A stretch of 42,990 nucleotides of DNA. It comes from a virus. The stretch lies in IMG/VR virus record IMGVR_UViG_3300033388_000826, positions 1 to 42,990 of that record, one strand, 5' to 3'. A program made the position numbers and the translations under genes. Shown one piece after another: positions 4,340 through 16,915 of this stretch; the stretch's first letter is position 1; each line of letters opens with the position of its first letter. The notes below the pieces were generated by a model, which did not search any database, had not been told where the DNA came from, and saw only the letters and a program-made list of their open reading frames with translations.

Positions 4340-4365
4340 GTAGTACTAATGAGGAGTATTAGAAA

Positions 4366-9579: not shown

Positions 9580-10539
9580 ATGACATTCATGCACATCGGA
9601 ACAGTCACCGCAACGGCAAATATACCTATAGTCATTGAGTTGCAAAATCTGACAGCACATGCTGTGCATTCAACCAATCCTTCATCAGGGGTCAATGCTA
9701 GATCAATTGGTGATGTCACAAGCGAAGTTAATGGTGCTACGAATTATTCACACGATTGGATTTCGCCAACGAGTCAAGCACCAGGCAACCCAGTGTATCA
9801 AATAAAGCGCGGCGCCTCTGCACCCTTCGACTTAAACACAGGAGAGGGTGCTGGATATGGCCCTCTTGAAGATGTTTGGACAAATGTTGGCTCGTCCGCT
9901 CGTTGGGCCTGGGCACTTACCCCTGAAACCGTTTCCTCGGCTGTCGCGACTTTCACAGTTTCAATACGGCAAGGAACTGGCCCTGTGTTAGACACAGCAA
10001 CTTGGACTATATCAGTACTCCGCCAAGCAAGCGGCGGCGGAGGCGGCGGCTGCTTCACTGGCAACATGCTTGTGCTAATGGCTGATGGCACTGAGAAACC
10101 GATTGCAGACATTTTCGCAGGTGAGATGGTTATGTCTCTCAACACAGAAACCAACACGCTTGTAAGTGCAAGGGTTGATGACCTTATGGTACCGCGTATC
10201 TGCAATATCTACGAAATAAAATTAAGCAATGGCAAGACAATCGAAACAACCATCGAGCATCCGTTTAGAACAGCAAACGGCAGATGGGCTAACATCGACC
10301 CTGAAGCAACATATCGACCTCGACATGGCGGCAGGGAAGTAAAACCGTATGTTGGTTCGCAGCTACAGCAGTTACATGAAGGTATGTTGCTACATGGCGT
10401 AGAAGGCAACGCTAAGGTTGTGAAAATCATTGACACAGGCCGTCAAGAAACTGTTTACCATCTAGCTCGCGTAGGGATCCACCACAACTTCATCGTTGAA
10501 GGAATGTGTGTCCATAACATTATTGATGAAATCAAGTAA
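9580..10539 (+). CDS. late protein with C-terminal Hint (intein-like) autoprocessing domain
   Basis: The 319-aa protein has two parts. Residues 1-150 are Thr/Ser/Val-rich beta structure of unknown family, ending in a six-glycine linker (152-157). Residues 158-313 form a Hint domain: catalytic Cys158 in CFTGNMLVLMADGTEKPI, the GEMVMSLN strand, block-B TTIEHPF with His227, and the C-terminal HHNFIVEGMCVHN with His312-Asn313. After Asn313 comes Ile, not Cys, Ser or Thr, and only six residues remain. Protein splicing is therefore not expected; N-terminal thioester cleavage or ligation, or Asn cyclisation, is possible, as in bacterial intein-like domains. A late box precedes it. I infer a secreted or virion-surface protein that is cut or attached through the Hint domain. 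Confidence 0.8.
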   Translation: MTFMHIGTVTATANIPIVIELQNLTAHAVHSTNPSSGVNARSIGDVTSEVNGATNYSHDWISPTSQAPGNPVYQIKRGASAPFDLNTGEGAGYGPLEDVWTNVGSSARWAWALTPETVSSAVATFTVSIRQGTGPVLDTATWTISVLRQASGGGGGGCFTGNMLVLMADGTEKPIADIFAGEMVMSLNTETNTLVSARVDDLMVPRICNIYEIKLSNGKTIETTIEHPFRTANGRWANIDPEATYRPRHGGREVKPYVGSQLQQLHEGMLLHGVEGNAKVVKIIDTGRQETVYHLARVGIHHNFIVEGMCVHNIIDEIK

Positions 10540-10669: not shown

Positions 10670-10687
10670 AGTGGTTGACAAACCACT
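10670..10687 (+). promoter_or_regulatory. palindromic operator candidate over the -35 box of the NAD+ cassette
   Basis: AGTGGTT-GACA-AACCACT is a perfect 7-bp inverted repeat with a 4-base centre. It covers the TTGACA -35 hexamer at 10675-10680, so a bound repressor would block RNA polymerase. I did not see this palindrome at the other promoters. No T-run follows, so it is not a terminator. Confidence 0.5.
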
Positions 10688-10703
10688 AGCTTCCATGTAA
10701 TAT
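10675..10703 (+). promoter_or_regulatory. sigma70-type early promoter for the NAD+ cassette
   Basis: TTGACA at 10675-10680, 17-bp spacer, TAATAT at 10698-10703; a TATACT at 10701-10706 overlaps. A late box follows at 10714, so this cassette may be transcribed both early and late. Confidence 0.65.
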
Positions 10704-10713
10704 ACTCATATTA

Positions 10714-10721
10714 GATAAATA
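10714..10721 (+). promoter_or_regulatory. late promoter box GATAAATA for the NAD+ cassette
   Basis: A-GATAAATA-C, 11 bases after the early -10 element and about 76 bases before the GTG start of the NMN adenylyltransferase gene. Same form as at virion genes. Confidence 0.55.
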
Positions 10722-10797
10722 CTTTATATAAGAAAGGTGGACTTTCTTAAGCAGCAAGGGATTCTTGCAGCAAGTAGACGATACGGAGGGTATCGAA

Positions 10798-11910
10798 GTG
10801 AGTGAAAGAAAATACGATCTAGCCGTATTCATCGGCAGAATGCAGCCCTTACATCACGGGCATATTCATAATATCAAACGCGCACTATCTCTAGCAGATC
10901 ACGTTCTTGTAATCGCAGGATCAGCAAATCAACCCCGAACTCCTAAAAACCCGTTCACAGCAGATGAGCGCGGTGCAATGGTCGATTCAATCTTCGGAGA
11001 ATACGGCGACCGCGTACAGGTTGTTGGTGTCGAAGATTACTACCCTGACACGCTATGGCTCAAGAATGTACAGACCGTAGCTCACAAACACCTTATCAAT
11101 AACGGCATTGACACTTTCGATGCTAGCATCGCTATTCTCGGCCATGACAAAGATCACACAAGTTTCTATCTCAAGCAGTTTCCTACTTGGGACTTCGTTG
11201 ACATCGGTCATCGGATTCGCGAAGTTAGAATAGATGCAGACGGCATTGAACGTACTTACTGCGAGGAAGCTGGAAAAATTCTCGACGCATCCATAATCCG
11301 CGATCATTATTTCGCAGGTGAGTTTGAAGATGTTGTAGCAGATGTTCCGCCAGAAGTACTCGCATTTCTCGACAAGTTTTCAAAAACACTTAACTATAAG
11401 GTTCTCGTTGAAGAACAGGAATACGTCGAACGTTATCACAAAATTTGGGAACTAGGACAGCCTGTTCCGTACAATGTCACATTCGTAACGACTGACGCAG
11501 TTGTTGTACAGAGTGGACACGTATTACTTGTTAAAAGGCGTGTCGCACCTGGAAAAGGTCTTTGGGCACTCCCAGGCGGGTTCTTGAATCAGCACGAACG
11601 TTTAGAAGACGGCATGATTCGCGAACTGCGCGAAGAAACTAAATTGAAAGTGCCAGTCCCAGTACTCAAAGGTAGCATCAAGTCTTTCGAAGTTTTCGAT
11701 GCTCCGAACAGAAGTCTTCGTGGCCGCACGATCACAAACGCATTCTTGATTGATCTTGAAGATCAAAACAAACTACCCAAAGTGAAAGGTTCGGATGACG
11801 CACAGGAAGCACGTTGGTTCCCGCTGGACATCGTTGACGCAATGGGGAGCATACTTTTCGAAGATCACAAATCAATCATCCAAACAATGTCAGCAAGGTT
11901 GACGGACTAA
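10798..11910 (+). CDS. nadM: bifunctional NMN adenylyltransferase / Nudix hydrolase (NadM-Nudix)
   Basis: I choose GTG at 10798, eight bases after GGAGG; an in-frame TTG at 10765 lacks such a site. The product is 370 aa. The N-terminal nucleotidyltransferase domain shows FIGRMQPLHHGHIHNIKRAL with the HxGH-type motif (HHGH, about 19-22) and SANQPRTPKNPFTADER. It makes NAD+ from NMN and ATP. The C-terminal Nudix domain has GGFLNQHERLEDGMIRELRE at about 259-278, then ETKL; the box lacks the usual final Gly (Lys instead). The two-domain form is known in cyanobacteria, Francisella and large phages such as KVP40. With the nicotinamide phosphoribosyltransferase downstream it completes a nicotinamide-to-NAD+ route. 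Cytoplasmic. Confidence 0.9.
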   Translation: MSERKYDLAVFIGRMQPLHHGHIHNIKRALSLADHVLVIAGSANQPRTPKNPFTADERGAMVDSIFGEYGDRVQVVGVEDYYPDTLWLKNVQTVAHKHLINNGIDTFDASIAILGHDKDHTSFYLKQFPTWDFVDIGHRIREVRIDADGIERTYCEEAGKILDASIIRDHYFAGEFEDVVADVPPEVLAFLDKFSKTLNYKVLVEEQEYVERYHKIWELGQPVPYNVTFVTTDAVVVQSGHVLLVKRRVAPGKGLWALPGGFLNQHERLEDGMIRELREETKLKVPVPVLKGSIKSFEVFDAPNRSLRGRTITNAFLIDLEDQNKLPKVKGSDDAQEARWFPLDIVDAMGSILFEDHKSIIQTMSARLTD

Positions 11911-11914
11911 GATA

Positions 11915-12202
11915 ATGAACTACGGTGACAAAGTATTTGTAATCTCAACTGGCGATGTTGAAATAGCTGAAATACGATCAGTGATTTCATACAGAGGCAT
12001 GGTCACTGGCTATCATTTACGTACTCCGCATTGTGACTCAGCACCAGTCAAAGTTAGCAAGAAGGATGTTTTTACTGACGAAGAGGAAGCAACGAAAGCA
12101 CTATTCATCAGAAATTTAAAGAAAACAGAAAAAAGCAAACAGCCAGCAGAAGATGTAAGAGGTGATCGGCATTGGATCACAGGACATAAGAGACATAGAT
12201 AA
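11915..12202 (+). CDS. small paralog 1 of 3 in the NAD+ cassette, unknown function
   Basis: The 95-aa protein begins MNYGDKVFVISTGDVEIAEI and carries the segment KDVFTDEEEATKALFIRNLK at about 50-69. The next two genes share the same plan: a beta-rich start (V.VI..... ) and a later 'D(I/V)(F/Y)..(K/D)EEA.K.(I/L)F.R.L' helix. The three look like a tandem gene family. Between NadM and NadV, they probably share expression with NAD+ salvage, but the role is unknown. The stop overlaps the next ATG (TAATG). Confidence 0.75.
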   Translation: MNYGDKVFVISTGDVEIAEIRSVISYRGMVTGYHLRTPHCDSAPVKVSKKDVFTDEEEATKALFIRNLKKTEKSKQPAEDVRGDRHWITGHKRHR

Positions 12203-12456
12203 TGAAAACAGGACAGACAGTATACGTAATTCATCGAACGCAGAACGTTCTATCAGGCGTACTCGGTGACAAGACTACAGCACAGGGGTTCTACACTCGC
12301 TGGGGCAACGGGCATATGATTTATTTCCGCACAGCAGGAATTCAAGCAAAAGAAGTTCCTTATAACGACGAAGACATTTTCTGCACAAAAGAAGAAGCAA
12401 AAAAGGAAATATTCAAGCGACGTTTGCGCTATCCGCAACTGAGAGGTGCAGCATGA
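12202..12456 (+). CDS. small paralog 2 of 3 in the NAD+ cassette, unknown function
   Basis: The 84-aa protein begins MKTGQTVYVIHRTQNVLSGV and ends with DIFCTKEEAKKEIFKRRLRY, aligning by eye with KDVFTDEEEATKALFIRNLK of the preceding gene. Spacing between the two shared blocks is similar. It overlaps both neighbours (TAATG and ATGA), so the three paralogs are translationally coupled. The beta-rich N-terminal half looks like a small SH3-like or KOW-like barrel, an inference from the strand pattern only. Confidence 0.75.
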   Translation: MKTGQTVYVIHRTQNVLSGVLGDKTTAQGFYTRWGNGHMIYFRTAGIQAKEVPYNDEDIFCTKEEAKKEIFKRRLRYPQLRGAA

Positions 12457-12749
12457 GCTATGGCATGAACTTCCCAATGAAATTCCCAATTGACACTAAA
12501 GTATATGCAATCTTCAACGGCACAGTTCATAAGTCATACGTAAGAGCGCAGAGCAGAGTGTACAGAGAATTTTTGAGACTTCATTTGTATGATAAAATGA
12601 AAGTGATTAACGGACACGAAGTTCCGATGATTCTTGACTTGCATCCAGATGATGTATACAAAGACAAAGAAGTAGCACAAAAGATTTTATTCAATCGAAA
12701 GTTAAAAGGATTACCAGAGAATACCCTGTGGGTATCGGAGGAGAAATGA
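12453..12749 (+). CDS. small paralog 3 of 3 in the NAD+ cassette, unknown function
   Basis: The 98-aa protein has 'FPIDTKVYAIFNGTVHKSYV' near the N-terminus and DDVYKDKEVAQKILFNRKLK at about 67-86, matching the shared C-terminal block of its two upstream neighbours. An N-terminal extension (MSYGMNFPMK) distinguishes it. ATG overlaps the previous stop (ATGA). Function unknown; probable duplication product. Confidence 0.75.
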   Translation: MSYGMNFPMKFPIDTKVYAIFNGTVHKSYVRAQSRVYREFLRLHLYDKMKVINGHEVPMILDLHPDDVYKDKEVAQKILFNRKLKGLPENTLWVSEEK

Positions 12750-12949
12750 AAATGAGTAACTTAGAATTTATCAGCAAAGTAGCATACGAGGAGCGCATTC
12801 ATCGCTCACTACACGGAGTCGAACACGCTAAACCGTATTTGGCGGTGTTGCGCAAAGCAGCAACAGTAGCAAAGACTGAAGGCATATTTGACGATGCTAC
12901 ATTTAACAAACACGGATTAGCTGAAGGTGGCCCGTTCGTGAAACACTAA
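12746..12949 (+). CDS. hypothetical protein just upstream of nadV (67 aa)
   Basis: ATG 12746 follows GGAGGAG closely; ATG 12752 is the alternative with more usual spacing. The protein (MKMSNLEFISKVAYEERIHR, later HAKPYLAVLRKAATVAKTEG) is largely helical. It lies between the paralog trio and nadV with small gaps, so it belongs to the NAD+ operon. No domain recognised. Confidence 0.7.
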   Translation: MKMSNLEFISKVAYEERIHRSLHGVEHAKPYLAVLRKAATVAKTEGIFDDATFNKHGLAEGGPFVKH

Positions 12950-12988
12950 GTCCTGCAGTGGAGCGGGCATAATTGTAAGGAGATTACA

Positions 12989-14494
12989 ATGAGCATTATA
13001 CAAGAAATTAGAGAAACATATGGCGCTGCTGGTGACACAGACAGCTACAAATTCTCACACCCAGCACAGTATCCTGCGGGAACTGAGCGGCTGATGAGTC
13101 ACATTTTTAGCAGAGGCAGCGAACAATTCGATGAAGTACAATGGTTCGGTTTGCAGTTAGTTATCAAGGAGCATTTGCTTCGACAGCTAACACACAAACA
13201 AGTTGATAACATCATTGCATTTCAGAGAGCGCATCTGTTCGGCACTGAAATTGACGAGCTAGAAGTTGCACTTCGCGCAGTAGTTGATGATTACGACGGC
13301 TACATGCCCCTCACGATCAGAGCAATTCCTGAGGGCACAGTGATCCCAACCAAGCAATTACTTGCAACGGTTGAATCAGCAGTAGCAGACGAGCGTATCA
13401 TTGCGCTAACAACCTACATGGAAACGCTGATTATGCGAGTATGGGCGCCTACTACGGTAGCGACAACGTCCTATCACATTAAGAAGATCATTTATGACGG
13501 TCTGTTGAAATCGGCTGACGATGCAGATGCAGAAATCGGATTCAAGTTACACGACTTCGGTTCTCGCGGCGTGTCAAGCATGGAGAGTGCAGCGTTTAAC
13601 GGCGCAGCGCACCTTGTAAACTTCTTAGGAAGTGATACGACAGTAGGCATCATGGCTGCTAACATCGGCTATCACGAGGAAATGTCTGGATTCAGCATTC
13701 CTGCTACAGAGCATAGCACGACTACAGCATTTGGCCGCGATGGTGAACCAGAATTCATCGCGCAAATGTTTGACAAGTTTGCAAAACCAGGCGCGATCTT
13801 CGCAACAGTAGCAGACAGTTACGACATTAAGAATTTTGTCGATAACATTACGCCGCAGTTCAAAGATCGTCTACGTAAATCAGGCGCTACGTGGGTGATT
13901 CGTCCAGATAGCGGCGATCCAGTTTTGACTCCTGTAGAACTAGTCAAGCGTCTTGCAAGAGTCTTTGGTTTCACGTACAATGGCAAGGGCTACAAGGTTC
14001 TTGACGGAGTTCGCGTAATTCAAGGTGACGGCATCGACATCGAAGATGTTAGGCAGATTGTTGACTTGCTTATTGAGGACAATTGGAGCATTAGCAACAT
14101 CGCATTCGGAATGGGTGGTGGTCTGTTACAGAAGAACAACAGAGACACCCTGAAGTTTGCAATGAAAGCTTGCGCACGATACACAGATGGTGTTTGGATC
14201 GACATTTACAAAGATCCTACTATTTATAACCCAACAACCTGGGAACCAATTAGCTCAAGCTTCAAGAAATCAATGGCTGGTCGGTTGGAATTGGTGTACA
14301 ACGGCAAAGACTATAAGACAGTCCGCGTCGAAGAGGTTGCAGCAATGATGTCCGCAGGTTATACGCCAATGCTTGAGACAGTTTACGACAATGGTGTTCT
14401 CGTTCGCGATATGACATTTGCAGAGGTGCGTAGCAATGCGCGGATTCCTGCAGAACGAATCGCAGTAGAGGCAACTGAAGTCGAAACTGCTTAA
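12989..14494 (+). CDS. nadV: nicotinamide phosphoribosyltransferase (NAMPT/NadV)
   Basis: The 501-aa protein matches the NAMPT family along its length (human NAMPT is 491 aa). Signatures: DTDSYKFSHPAQYPAGTERL near the N-terminus, FGSRGVSSMESAAFNGAAHL at about 190-209, IPATEHSTTTAFGRDGE with His242 at the position of human catalytic His247, WVIRPDSGDP with Arg305/Asp307, GVRVIQGDGIDIEDV and GMGGGLLQKNNRDTLKFAMK. It converts nicotinamide and PRPP to NMN, which the upstream NMN adenylyltransferase turns into NAD+. It has its own AAGGAG ribosome site. A strong stem-loop follows. In phages this pair can restore NAD+ pools, including after host NAD-depleting defences. Confidence 0.93.
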   Translation: MSIIQEIRETYGAAGDTDSYKFSHPAQYPAGTERLMSHIFSRGSEQFDEVQWFGLQLVIKEHLLRQLTHKQVDNIIAFQRAHLFGTEIDELEVALRAVVDDYDGYMPLTIRAIPEGTVIPTKQLLATVESAVADERIIALTTYMETLIMRVWAPTTVATTSYHIKKIIYDGLLKSADDADAEIGFKLHDFGSRGVSSMESAAFNGAAHLVNFLGSDTTVGIMAANIGYHEEMSGFSIPATEHSTTTAFGRDGEPEFIAQMFDKFAKPGAIFATVADSYDIKNFVDNITPQFKDRLRKSGATWVIRPDSGDPVLTPVELVKRLARVFGFTYNGKGYKVLDGVRVIQGDGIDIEDVRQIVDLLIEDNWSISNIAFGMGGGLLQKNNRDTLKFAMKACARYTDGVWIDIYKDPTIYNPTTWEPISSSFKKSMAGRLELVYNGKDYKTVRVEEVAAMMSAGYTPMLETVYDNGVLVRDMTFAEVRSNARIPAERIAVEATEVETA

Positions 14495-16139: not shown

Positions 16140-16628
16140 ATGAATACTTCTAAAGACAACGTACAGCACATGATCGAAGCCTTCACTGATTTTCGTGAAG
16201 GCGACGATCATTCAGAGGAAGCAACAGACAATTTGCTTCGAACTTTGTTAGATCATTCAAAAGTTCCTTCTTACCAACACTTCTTGGAAGAGGATATGGC
16301 CAATCATGGCAAGGGTGTATCTGCCAATGATGTACGTCGCGATTTTGACGCTAATCCGAAGACGGATGCAGAGCAAAACGAAATAACCGAAATGCGGAAA
16401 TTGATAAGCGGTGGCTTGCATGGCACGGCTGACGAAAGCAAACTTTGGAAATCTCACGATGATCTGATGGCGCTAATCACTACGTATCCGCCCGTGATAT
16501 TGGAGCAATTACTTATCACTGGATTTGTGATTTACTTGATGCGGGCTGACGGTGTTGATTTTAATTCAGACACCGAAACATTTGAAGAATTTTACGTCGG
16601 CTGGGGTTCAGTCGTTCGCGGTGGCTAA
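16140..16628 (+). CDS. hypothetical protein (162 aa)
   Basis: ATG at 16140, two bases after the preceding stop. The protein is acidic and helical (MNTSKDNVQHMIEAFTDFRE). A C-terminal stretch (PPVILEQLLITGFVIYLMRA) is hydrophobic and could be a buried helix rather than a membrane segment. No family recognised. Same transcription unit as its neighbours. Confidence 0.7.
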   Translation: MNTSKDNVQHMIEAFTDFREGDDHSEEATDNLLRTLLDHSKVPSYQHFLEEDMANHGKGVSANDVRRDFDANPKTDAEQNEITEMRKLISGGLHGTADESKLWKSHDDLMALITTYPPVILEQLLITGFVIYLMRADGVDFNSDTETFEEFYVGWGSVVRGG

Positions 16629-16639
16629 GAGGATTTAGC

Positions 16640-16915
16640 ATGAAAGTTACAAAAGTGAAAGATTACGCTGAGGACGAGTCAACTACGACGTTGCAAGTCA
16701 TTAGCGCGGTAACACAGGAAGGCTGTGTTATCTCTGAACGCGAGTACGAGTACGAAGTTGAAGATGAAAATGACATTGACTTCGGTGCTACGCTGACAGG
16801 TACTGAAATTACGATGTCAGTGCCTTTCCTCGACACAGATGAACAAGTCTATCGGACTCTTGAAGAATTGGCCGAAGAGGTTGATGCAGAAGAATTGACG
16901 TTAGTTGAGGACTGA
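16640..16915 (+). CDS. acidic hypothetical protein (91 aa)
   Basis: Ribosome site AGAGGA precedes ATG 16640. The product is strongly acidic, with an alternating Glu/Tyr stretch (REYEYEVEDEND) and a beta-rich pattern. Strong negative charge in a small early protein is compatible with DNA mimicry, but there is no motif to support it. Stop lies next to the following start. Confidence 0.7.
   Translation: MKVTKVKDYAEDESTTTLQVISAVTQEGCVISEREYEYEVEDENDIDFGATLTGTEITMSVPFLDTDEQVYRTLEELAEEVDAEELTLVED

Follow-up and report, generated by a model that had tools for sequence, protein, structure and literature searches.

The stretch of DNA considered here (the window) is a 43-kb fragment, 42,990 nucleotides (nt) long, of the virus record IMGVR_UViG_3300033388_000826, and its genes for rIIA, rIIB, UvsX, UvsY, single-stranded DNA-binding protein, terminase, sheath and tube are a T4-like myovirus set. 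On the plus strand it carries two genes of the nicotinamide route to nicotinamide adenine dinucleotide (NAD+), each preceded by the structured leader RNA that is our main subject; the genes, promoters, hairpins at both genes, covariation, restriction to two genes and bacterial and phage spread described below were all established computationally. The first gene (10798..11910, plus strand) encodes a bifunctional nicotinamide mononucleotide (NMN) adenylyltransferase-Nudix protein (NadM-Nudix, below NMNAT-Nudix) of 370 aa, starting with GTG at 10798 behind the ribosome-binding site GGAGG, stopping at 11910, and assigned from Pfam (CTP_transf_like, 5.8e-12; NUDIX, 7.3e-19), PHROG 395 (3.6e-72) and its motifs. 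The second (12989..14494, plus strand) encodes a nicotinamide phosphoribosyltransferase (NAMPT/NadV) of 501 aa, recognised from Pfam (NAMPT_N, 2.1e-16; NAPRTase, 3.2e-42), PHROG 448 (2.8e-133) and solved NAMPT chains, with matches down to 1e-119. The catalytic motifs of both proteins are intact by sequence (GRMQPLHHGH and the RELREE Nudix box in the former; TDSYK, HDFGSRGVSS, EHST and RPDSGDP in the latter).

An initial interpretation of the window (the sequence-only reading) had described these two enzyme genes as flanking four small genes and as the pair of NAD+ reconstitution pathway 2 (NARP2). All the genes were found, both enzymes appear to be encoded in one operon, and the enzyme pair supports regarding the locus as a phage nicotinamide-to-NAD+ salvage operon of the NARP2 type. 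The cassette lies where it had been placed, except that its proposed start at 10670 falls in the promoter region and the first gene begins at 10798. The phage collection holds a NAMPT relative in 1909 records and an NMNAT-Nudix relative in 466, and NadV is present in every NadM phage according to a review (PMC9503650), so the enzyme pair is already known. What is new, and what is unusual in the locus, is the structured leader before each gene (10729-10795 and 12952-12990), which the sequence-only reading had overlooked.

The NMNAT leader consists of three hairpins. Hairpin 1 (10729..10749, plus strand; TAAGAAAG-GUGGA-CUUUCUUA) folds in all relatives. Hairpin 2 (10751..10771, plus strand; core GCAAG-GGAUU-CUUGC) belongs to the window clade only and was not found in the NMNAT leaders of the other phages or bacteria compared. 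Hairpin 3 (10779..10795, plus strand; CGAUAC-GGAGG-GUAUCG) has the Shine-Dalgarno sequence as its loop, and in the clade contig L004 it is altered in a compensatory manner (CGAUAU-GGAUG-AUAUCG). The NAMPT leader repeats the arrangement with a hairpin 1 (12952..12967, plus strand; CCUGC-AGUGGA-GCGGG) that bears the same GUGGA loop and a hairpin 3 (12972..12990, plus strand; AUUGUAA-GGAGA-UUACAAU) in which the Shine-Dalgarno sequence is again the loop and the start codon lies inside the stem. Folding z scores of the NMNAT leader were -3.4, -5.0, -4.4 and -6.4 for the window and three relatives, and its stems change on both sides among the clade relatives; across five orthologs of hairpin 1, 95% of the cells are paired and the covariation score is 0.725 versus 0.321 after shuffling. 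An exact search of viral contigs with the hairpin 3 sequence returned orthologs plus chance matches only. Two further Shine-Dalgarno-in-loop hairpins were noticed in the window, at 4341-4362 before the rIIB homolog and at 16624-16639 before the gene at 16640.

In other phages the same two-part plan is found: hairpin 1 about 30–50 nt upstream of the start, followed by a hairpin with the loop GGAGN. The NMNAT leaders share this plan though the proteins are only 37-47% identical, and the loop of hairpin 1 is usually AUAGA; the window element, with its GUGGA loop and extra hairpin, is a diverged form. Both genes carry the element in the roseophages MAL1, MD18, DSS3P8, RpAliso and RcXuper, in LucasX, B23, BUCT-ZZ01, phiOC and BcepSaruman, in the window clade and in the contigs L029 and L032, while the Shine-Dalgarno hairpin alone was seen in BUCT608, X1 and Milchi. 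The 150 kb of MAL1 contain two copies of the G-AUAGA-C hairpin, one ahead of NMNAT and the other ahead of NAMPT. In eight phage genomes or contigs, each with 49-223 open reading frames bearing a Shine-Dalgarno sequence, GGAG-loop stems of at least 5 bp single out both genes. The NMNAT and NAMPT genes are the sole 2 of 78 such frames with a well-paired GGAG-loop hairpin in one of these sets (G002), and phiOC has an identical TCTAAG-GGAGT-CTTAGA before both; in the remaining sets the gene pair is among the top scorers, together with a few unrelated matches of similar stem length. These whole-genome scans rule out that the phages generally place the Shine-Dalgarno sequence in a hairpin loop.

The element is not confined to viruses. 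In a bacterial set drawn from fetched nadV loci and weighted to Xanthomonadales and Burkholderia, a hairpin with the pentaloop ANAGA stands at 57/61 NMNAT-Nudix starts and at 58/65 testable nadV starts, in all but one case 29-40 nt ahead of the start codon; Caulobacter, Rhodospirillales, epsilonproteobacteria, Thiothrix, Thiofilum and two cyanobacterial bins are also carriers. Among 4784 candidate bacterial starts the hairpin was present at 112. The N-terminal motif identifies 93 of these as NMNAT or NAMPT, and about a dozen of the remaining 19 were assigned to the same gene pair by inspection. Bacterial nadV is preceded by the element at 59/61 loci with a neighbouring NMNAT-Nudix gene versus 1/15 loci without one (Fisher 2.5e-12), an association that also holds within Pseudoxanthomonas, Lysobacter and Caulobacter.

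Alignment of 45 sequences gave 87.6% paired cells (53.2 ± 1.6 after shuffling) and a covariation score of 0.794 (0.199 ± 0.018 after shuffling, reached by 0/500 shuffles; 0.12-0.20 in slid controls), with double changes at all 14 pairs. The shuffled controls leave some relatedness among the 45 sequences, and hairpin 1 was picked by its loop and paired core, which favours the inner pairs, so that the slid controls and the outer pairs deserve more weight. In hairpin 1 the stems drift around a fixed loop; a DNA palindrome for a transcription factor was ruled out, the arms being free while the loop is fixed. A covariance model of the element (R1) was applied to 1.15 Mb of phage DNA, where all 16 matches at E<0.1 precede NMNAT or NAMPT and include the phages X1, BUCT608 and phiOC, on which it had not been trained. 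Twelve bacterial genomes were scanned as well; among the matches listed, eleven of them had one or two sites at E<0.05, and where a genome had two, these were separated by 1.1-1.3 kb. Across 143 gammaproteobacterial genomes R1 matched in three: the query genome, one genome outside the training set, whose two sites belong to NMNAT and NAMPT, and a false positive in repeated sequence. The cyanobacterial phylum, represented by 194 genomes, gave a match in the query genome alone. Since so few of these 143 and 194 genomes match, the element may be called sporadic, as the operon is.

At the gathering threshold Rfam 15 yielded no riboswitch match in the window, only tRNAs in 13 phage loci and only an unrelated cobalamin riboswitch in 11 bacterial loci; a relaxed search of both leaders gave nothing relevant, with the NAD+-I and NAD+-II models unmatched. 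The searches of the window and of the phage and bacterial loci thus rule out a known Rfam element as the identity of the leaders. No description of such an element was found in the open literature, subscription literature lying outside the search. Judged from sequence comparison, the element is an unlisted, covarying and pathway-specific RNA that bacteria and phages share at their nicotinamide salvage genes.

The operon is preceded by two overlapping promoters. The sigma70-like promoter (TTGACA-17-TAATAT, 10675..10703, plus strand) is conserved in all orthologs (L002, L004, L005, L012/L024). The late-promoter motif GATAAATA (10714..10721, plus strand), 10 nt past the -10 hexamer, occurs 14 times in the window where 2.2 would be expected, always on the plus strand. 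At its position the orthologs carry GCTAAATA or GGTAAATA, and the site was at one stage taken as unconserved; this view was dropped once RVTAAATA emerged as the clade motif, with orthologous promoters swapping letters. Because this consensus covers the variants of the relatives, the late site counts as kept in them. In the clade contigs the consensus is strongly strand-biased (GA 30, AC 10, GG 7 and GC 7 on the plus strand; 0, 1, 0 and 0 on the minus strand), and its distance from the -10 hexamer is exactly 10 nt in 5/5 orthologs, which are five distinct leaders. Over the window's 14 sites and L003-L005 and L012, GATAAATA is the preferred form, and orthologous promoters interchange GATAAATA, GCTAAATA, ACTAAATA and GGTAAATA. 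The leaders of two more distant contigs, L029 (GATAAATA) and L032 (TATAAATA), likewise have a late-type motif upstream. The conservation of the promoter pair and of its spacing supports two-phase control, in which the operon would be read early from the sigma70-type promoter and again late from the overlapping phage promoter. From T4 late-promoter geometry the late transcript is predicted to start at about 10727, just upstream of hairpin 1, and we propose that early and late transcripts carry the same structured leader. Both promoters had been noted in the sequence-only reading and are present, conserved and invariantly spaced; the two-phase control that it had considered unusual is not peculiar to the locus, two-phase promoters being present elsewhere in this clade. 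Upstream of the operon, at 9580-10539, a gene with a late motif before it encodes a protein whose C-terminal domain is Hint/intein-like (Pfam Intein_splicing, 3.9e-13), and its halves are exchanged among relatives (L003 shares the N-terminal half only, L004 the Hint half only).

The small genes between the enzymes had likewise been thought unusual, a view that did not hold: such genes are common and vary from phage to phage. In the window s1 (11915..12202), s2 (12202..12456) and s3 (12453..12749) are tandem paralogs, and s4 (12746..12949), unrelated to them, is conserved in the clade immediately upstream of NAMPT; all four are on the plus strand. Clade relatives keep one to three copies of the s1-s3 family plus s4; no match to s2 was found among phages, and in other phages the gap holds unrelated small genes, differing from phage to phage, or none. 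The s1-s3 family (11915-12749) is strand-rich at its N-terminus and has a helix at its C-terminus in an AlphaFold2 model with a mean predicted local distance difference test score of 63, too weak for use. LucasX has no gene between the enzymes, yet both RNA elements are kept. Since they are unconserved between phages, the small genes are not the factor that acts on the leaders, and they were ruled out as its regulator; the conserved feature of the locus is the leader RNA element. By eye, the gene between NMNAT and NAMPT in Synechococcus phage B23 (L040, 2539-3069) resembles NADAR/DUF1768, and XacN1 has a DUF1768 gene directly downstream of NMNAT; these neighbours agree with published NAD+-ADP-ribose neighbourhoods (PMC9503650).

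The element probably governs the amounts in which the two enzymes are produced. The explanation towards which we tentatively lean, and which we would put a little short of probable, is that a pathway-specific RNA-binding protein reads the element as a translational operator, the likeliest such protein being NMNAT-Nudix, which would act on its own operon. Each enzyme gene would then offer a recognition hairpin and, downstream of it, another hairpin whose loop presents the Shine-Dalgarno sequence; the protein would dock on hairpin 1, bridge to hairpin 3 and keep the ribosome off both genes when NAD+ synthesis suffices, while low NAD+, or binding of substrate by the enzyme, would release it. In 10/10 phage representatives the hairpin 1 loop is identical at both genes of a phage with the stems differing (permutation P 0.00016), the loops being AUAGA, AAAGA in BUCT-ZZ01, GGGGU in phiOC, AAGA in BcepSaruman and GUGGA in the window, and such concerted loops within one phage point to a factor in trans. 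So does the bacterial association, in which the nadV element goes with a neighbouring NMNAT-Nudix gene and which makes NMNAT-Nudix the first candidate. Among the variants, both genes of BcepSaruman (L101) have the tetraloops AAGA and AGGA and those of phiOC (L045) have GGGGU; in the NMNAT leader of Mesorhizobium phage Cp1R7A-A1 (L044) hairpin 1 and the start-codon hairpin share the loop GGUGU, as would suit a single protein binding the two.

Several points weigh against this operator reading. The concert is imperfect, since L002 and L004 have GUGGA at NMNAT and UUGGA and AUGGA at NAMPT, and in the test of loop identity AUAGA is common to 6/10 representatives and the loops were partly read by eye. 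VspSw_1, CcrSwift, V1VFA-S and Erythrobacter L02 have both genes without the element. In the window itself the loop reads GUGGA instead of ANAGA, and the covariance model gives no match in the window, which appears to be tied to the wider element through position, the Shine-Dalgarno hairpin and the clade relative L005 (loop AUAGA). Inheritance of two operon types as complete units may account for the NMNAT association, and operator function is deduced from sequence and structure computation. To our knowledge, no NMNAT or Nudix domain acts as a translational repressor.

The main rival to a protein-read operator is a riboswitch, which we regard as rather unlikely: the hairpin pair would bind NAD+, NMN, nicotinamide, ADP-ribose or phosphoribosyl pyrophosphate (PRPP), and the bound form would hide the Shine-Dalgarno loop. 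The fixed A-N-A-G-A loop with its G-C closure across distant bacterial phyla and phages, and the position at the translation start of pathway genes only, would suit a riboswitch, and guanidine-II, in which two hairpins meet by their loops, is a precedent for so small an aptamer (PMC9094411). However, a fixed small molecule leaves unexplained why loop variants shift together at both genes of one phage; the inter-hairpin linker has no conserved bases and varies in length, and both loops are purine-rich, making Watson-Crick kissing impossible (pairing of the loops of hairpins 1 and 3 was ruled out for want of complementarity). The hairpins might instead be unregulated, shielding the 5' end of the mRNA and holding the Shine-Dalgarno sequence open for strong translation, as its place in a loop rather than a stem and the predicted late start at the foot of hairpin 1 would allow. 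This is unlikely, since other strongly expressed phage genes lack the element, hairpin 1 keeps its loop constant while its stems drift, the element is repeated before NAMPT inside the operon, distant from the 5' end, and the same two genes have it in phages and bacteria. According to a review, RNA structure protects GGAG from RegB (PMC3014915); RegB (PF10715) was matched in 0/10 phages in a search where the control also matched nowhere.

A CsrA/RsmA-type global regulator of the host would bind loops in the same geometry, an upstream hairpin site and a Shine-Dalgarno site bridged by a dimer as on glgC, and the window loop GUGGA does contain GGA, RsmE preferring ANGGAN loops (PMC7652899). Nevertheless, most hairpin 1 loops are ANAGA, without the GGA that hairpin 3 has in its Shine-Dalgarno sequence; CsrA (PF02599) was not found in 4/11 element-bearing bacterial genomes and four phage records (some assemblies are incomplete, and a phage could use host CsrA); and a global regulator is expected to have more than two targets. 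This makes CsrA/RsmA a most improbable reader, and it was rejected on loop sequence and CsrA distribution. That the locus is an ordinary NARP2 cassette, special only in its interposed small genes and two-phase promoters as first read, is very unlikely too: the enzymes, genes and both promoters were confirmed, but the conserved, covarying leaders at both genes are left unaccounted for and the interposed small genes are common and unconserved.

NAD+ depletion is a central weapon of bacterial immunity, and NARP2 is a main phage answer to it. We found no account of post-transcriptional control of nicotinamide salvage, phage or bacterial. Standing before exactly two pathway genes, in sulfur-oxidising gamma- and epsilonproteobacteria among other carriers, the element may be a natural sensor of the NAD+ pathway. 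It is possible, though doubtful in so full a form, that it represents a new widespread class of cis-regulatory RNA for nicotinamide salvage, read by NMNAT-Nudix as an RNA-binding NAD+ sensor or directly by NAD+ pathway metabolites, and that phages thereby tune the rebuilding of NAD+ to its level during host defence.

The locus shares with the KVP40-type NARP2 (NadV with NadM-Nudix) the same operon pair and the expected reactions from nicotinamide and PRPP to NMN and on to NAD+, to which the window adds four lineage-specific small genes and leader elements that appear in no NARP2 description found. Like NAD+-I (nadA) and other NAD riboswitches, it has RNA elements at NAD genes, and like guanidine-II it has two small hairpins near the start codon; it differs from them in loops and architecture and matches no Rfam 15 family. 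The element lacks the defining features of both the glgC-CsrA and the T4 gene 43 families. Leaders of the CsrA/RsmA type, such as that of glgC, also combine an upstream recognition-loop hairpin with a Shine-Dalgarno site (PMC7652899), whereas the element has the loop ANAGA, not ANGGAN, and two targets per genome, and CsrA was not found in some of its carriers. In the autogenous operator of T4 gene 43, a hairpin about 40 bases before the start is combined with contact to the ribosome-binding site, and loop bases drive recognition (PMC3014915); that operator serves one gene through one hairpin in T4-like phages, whereas the element described here stands before two genes, with two hairpins at each, in bacteria and many phage families.

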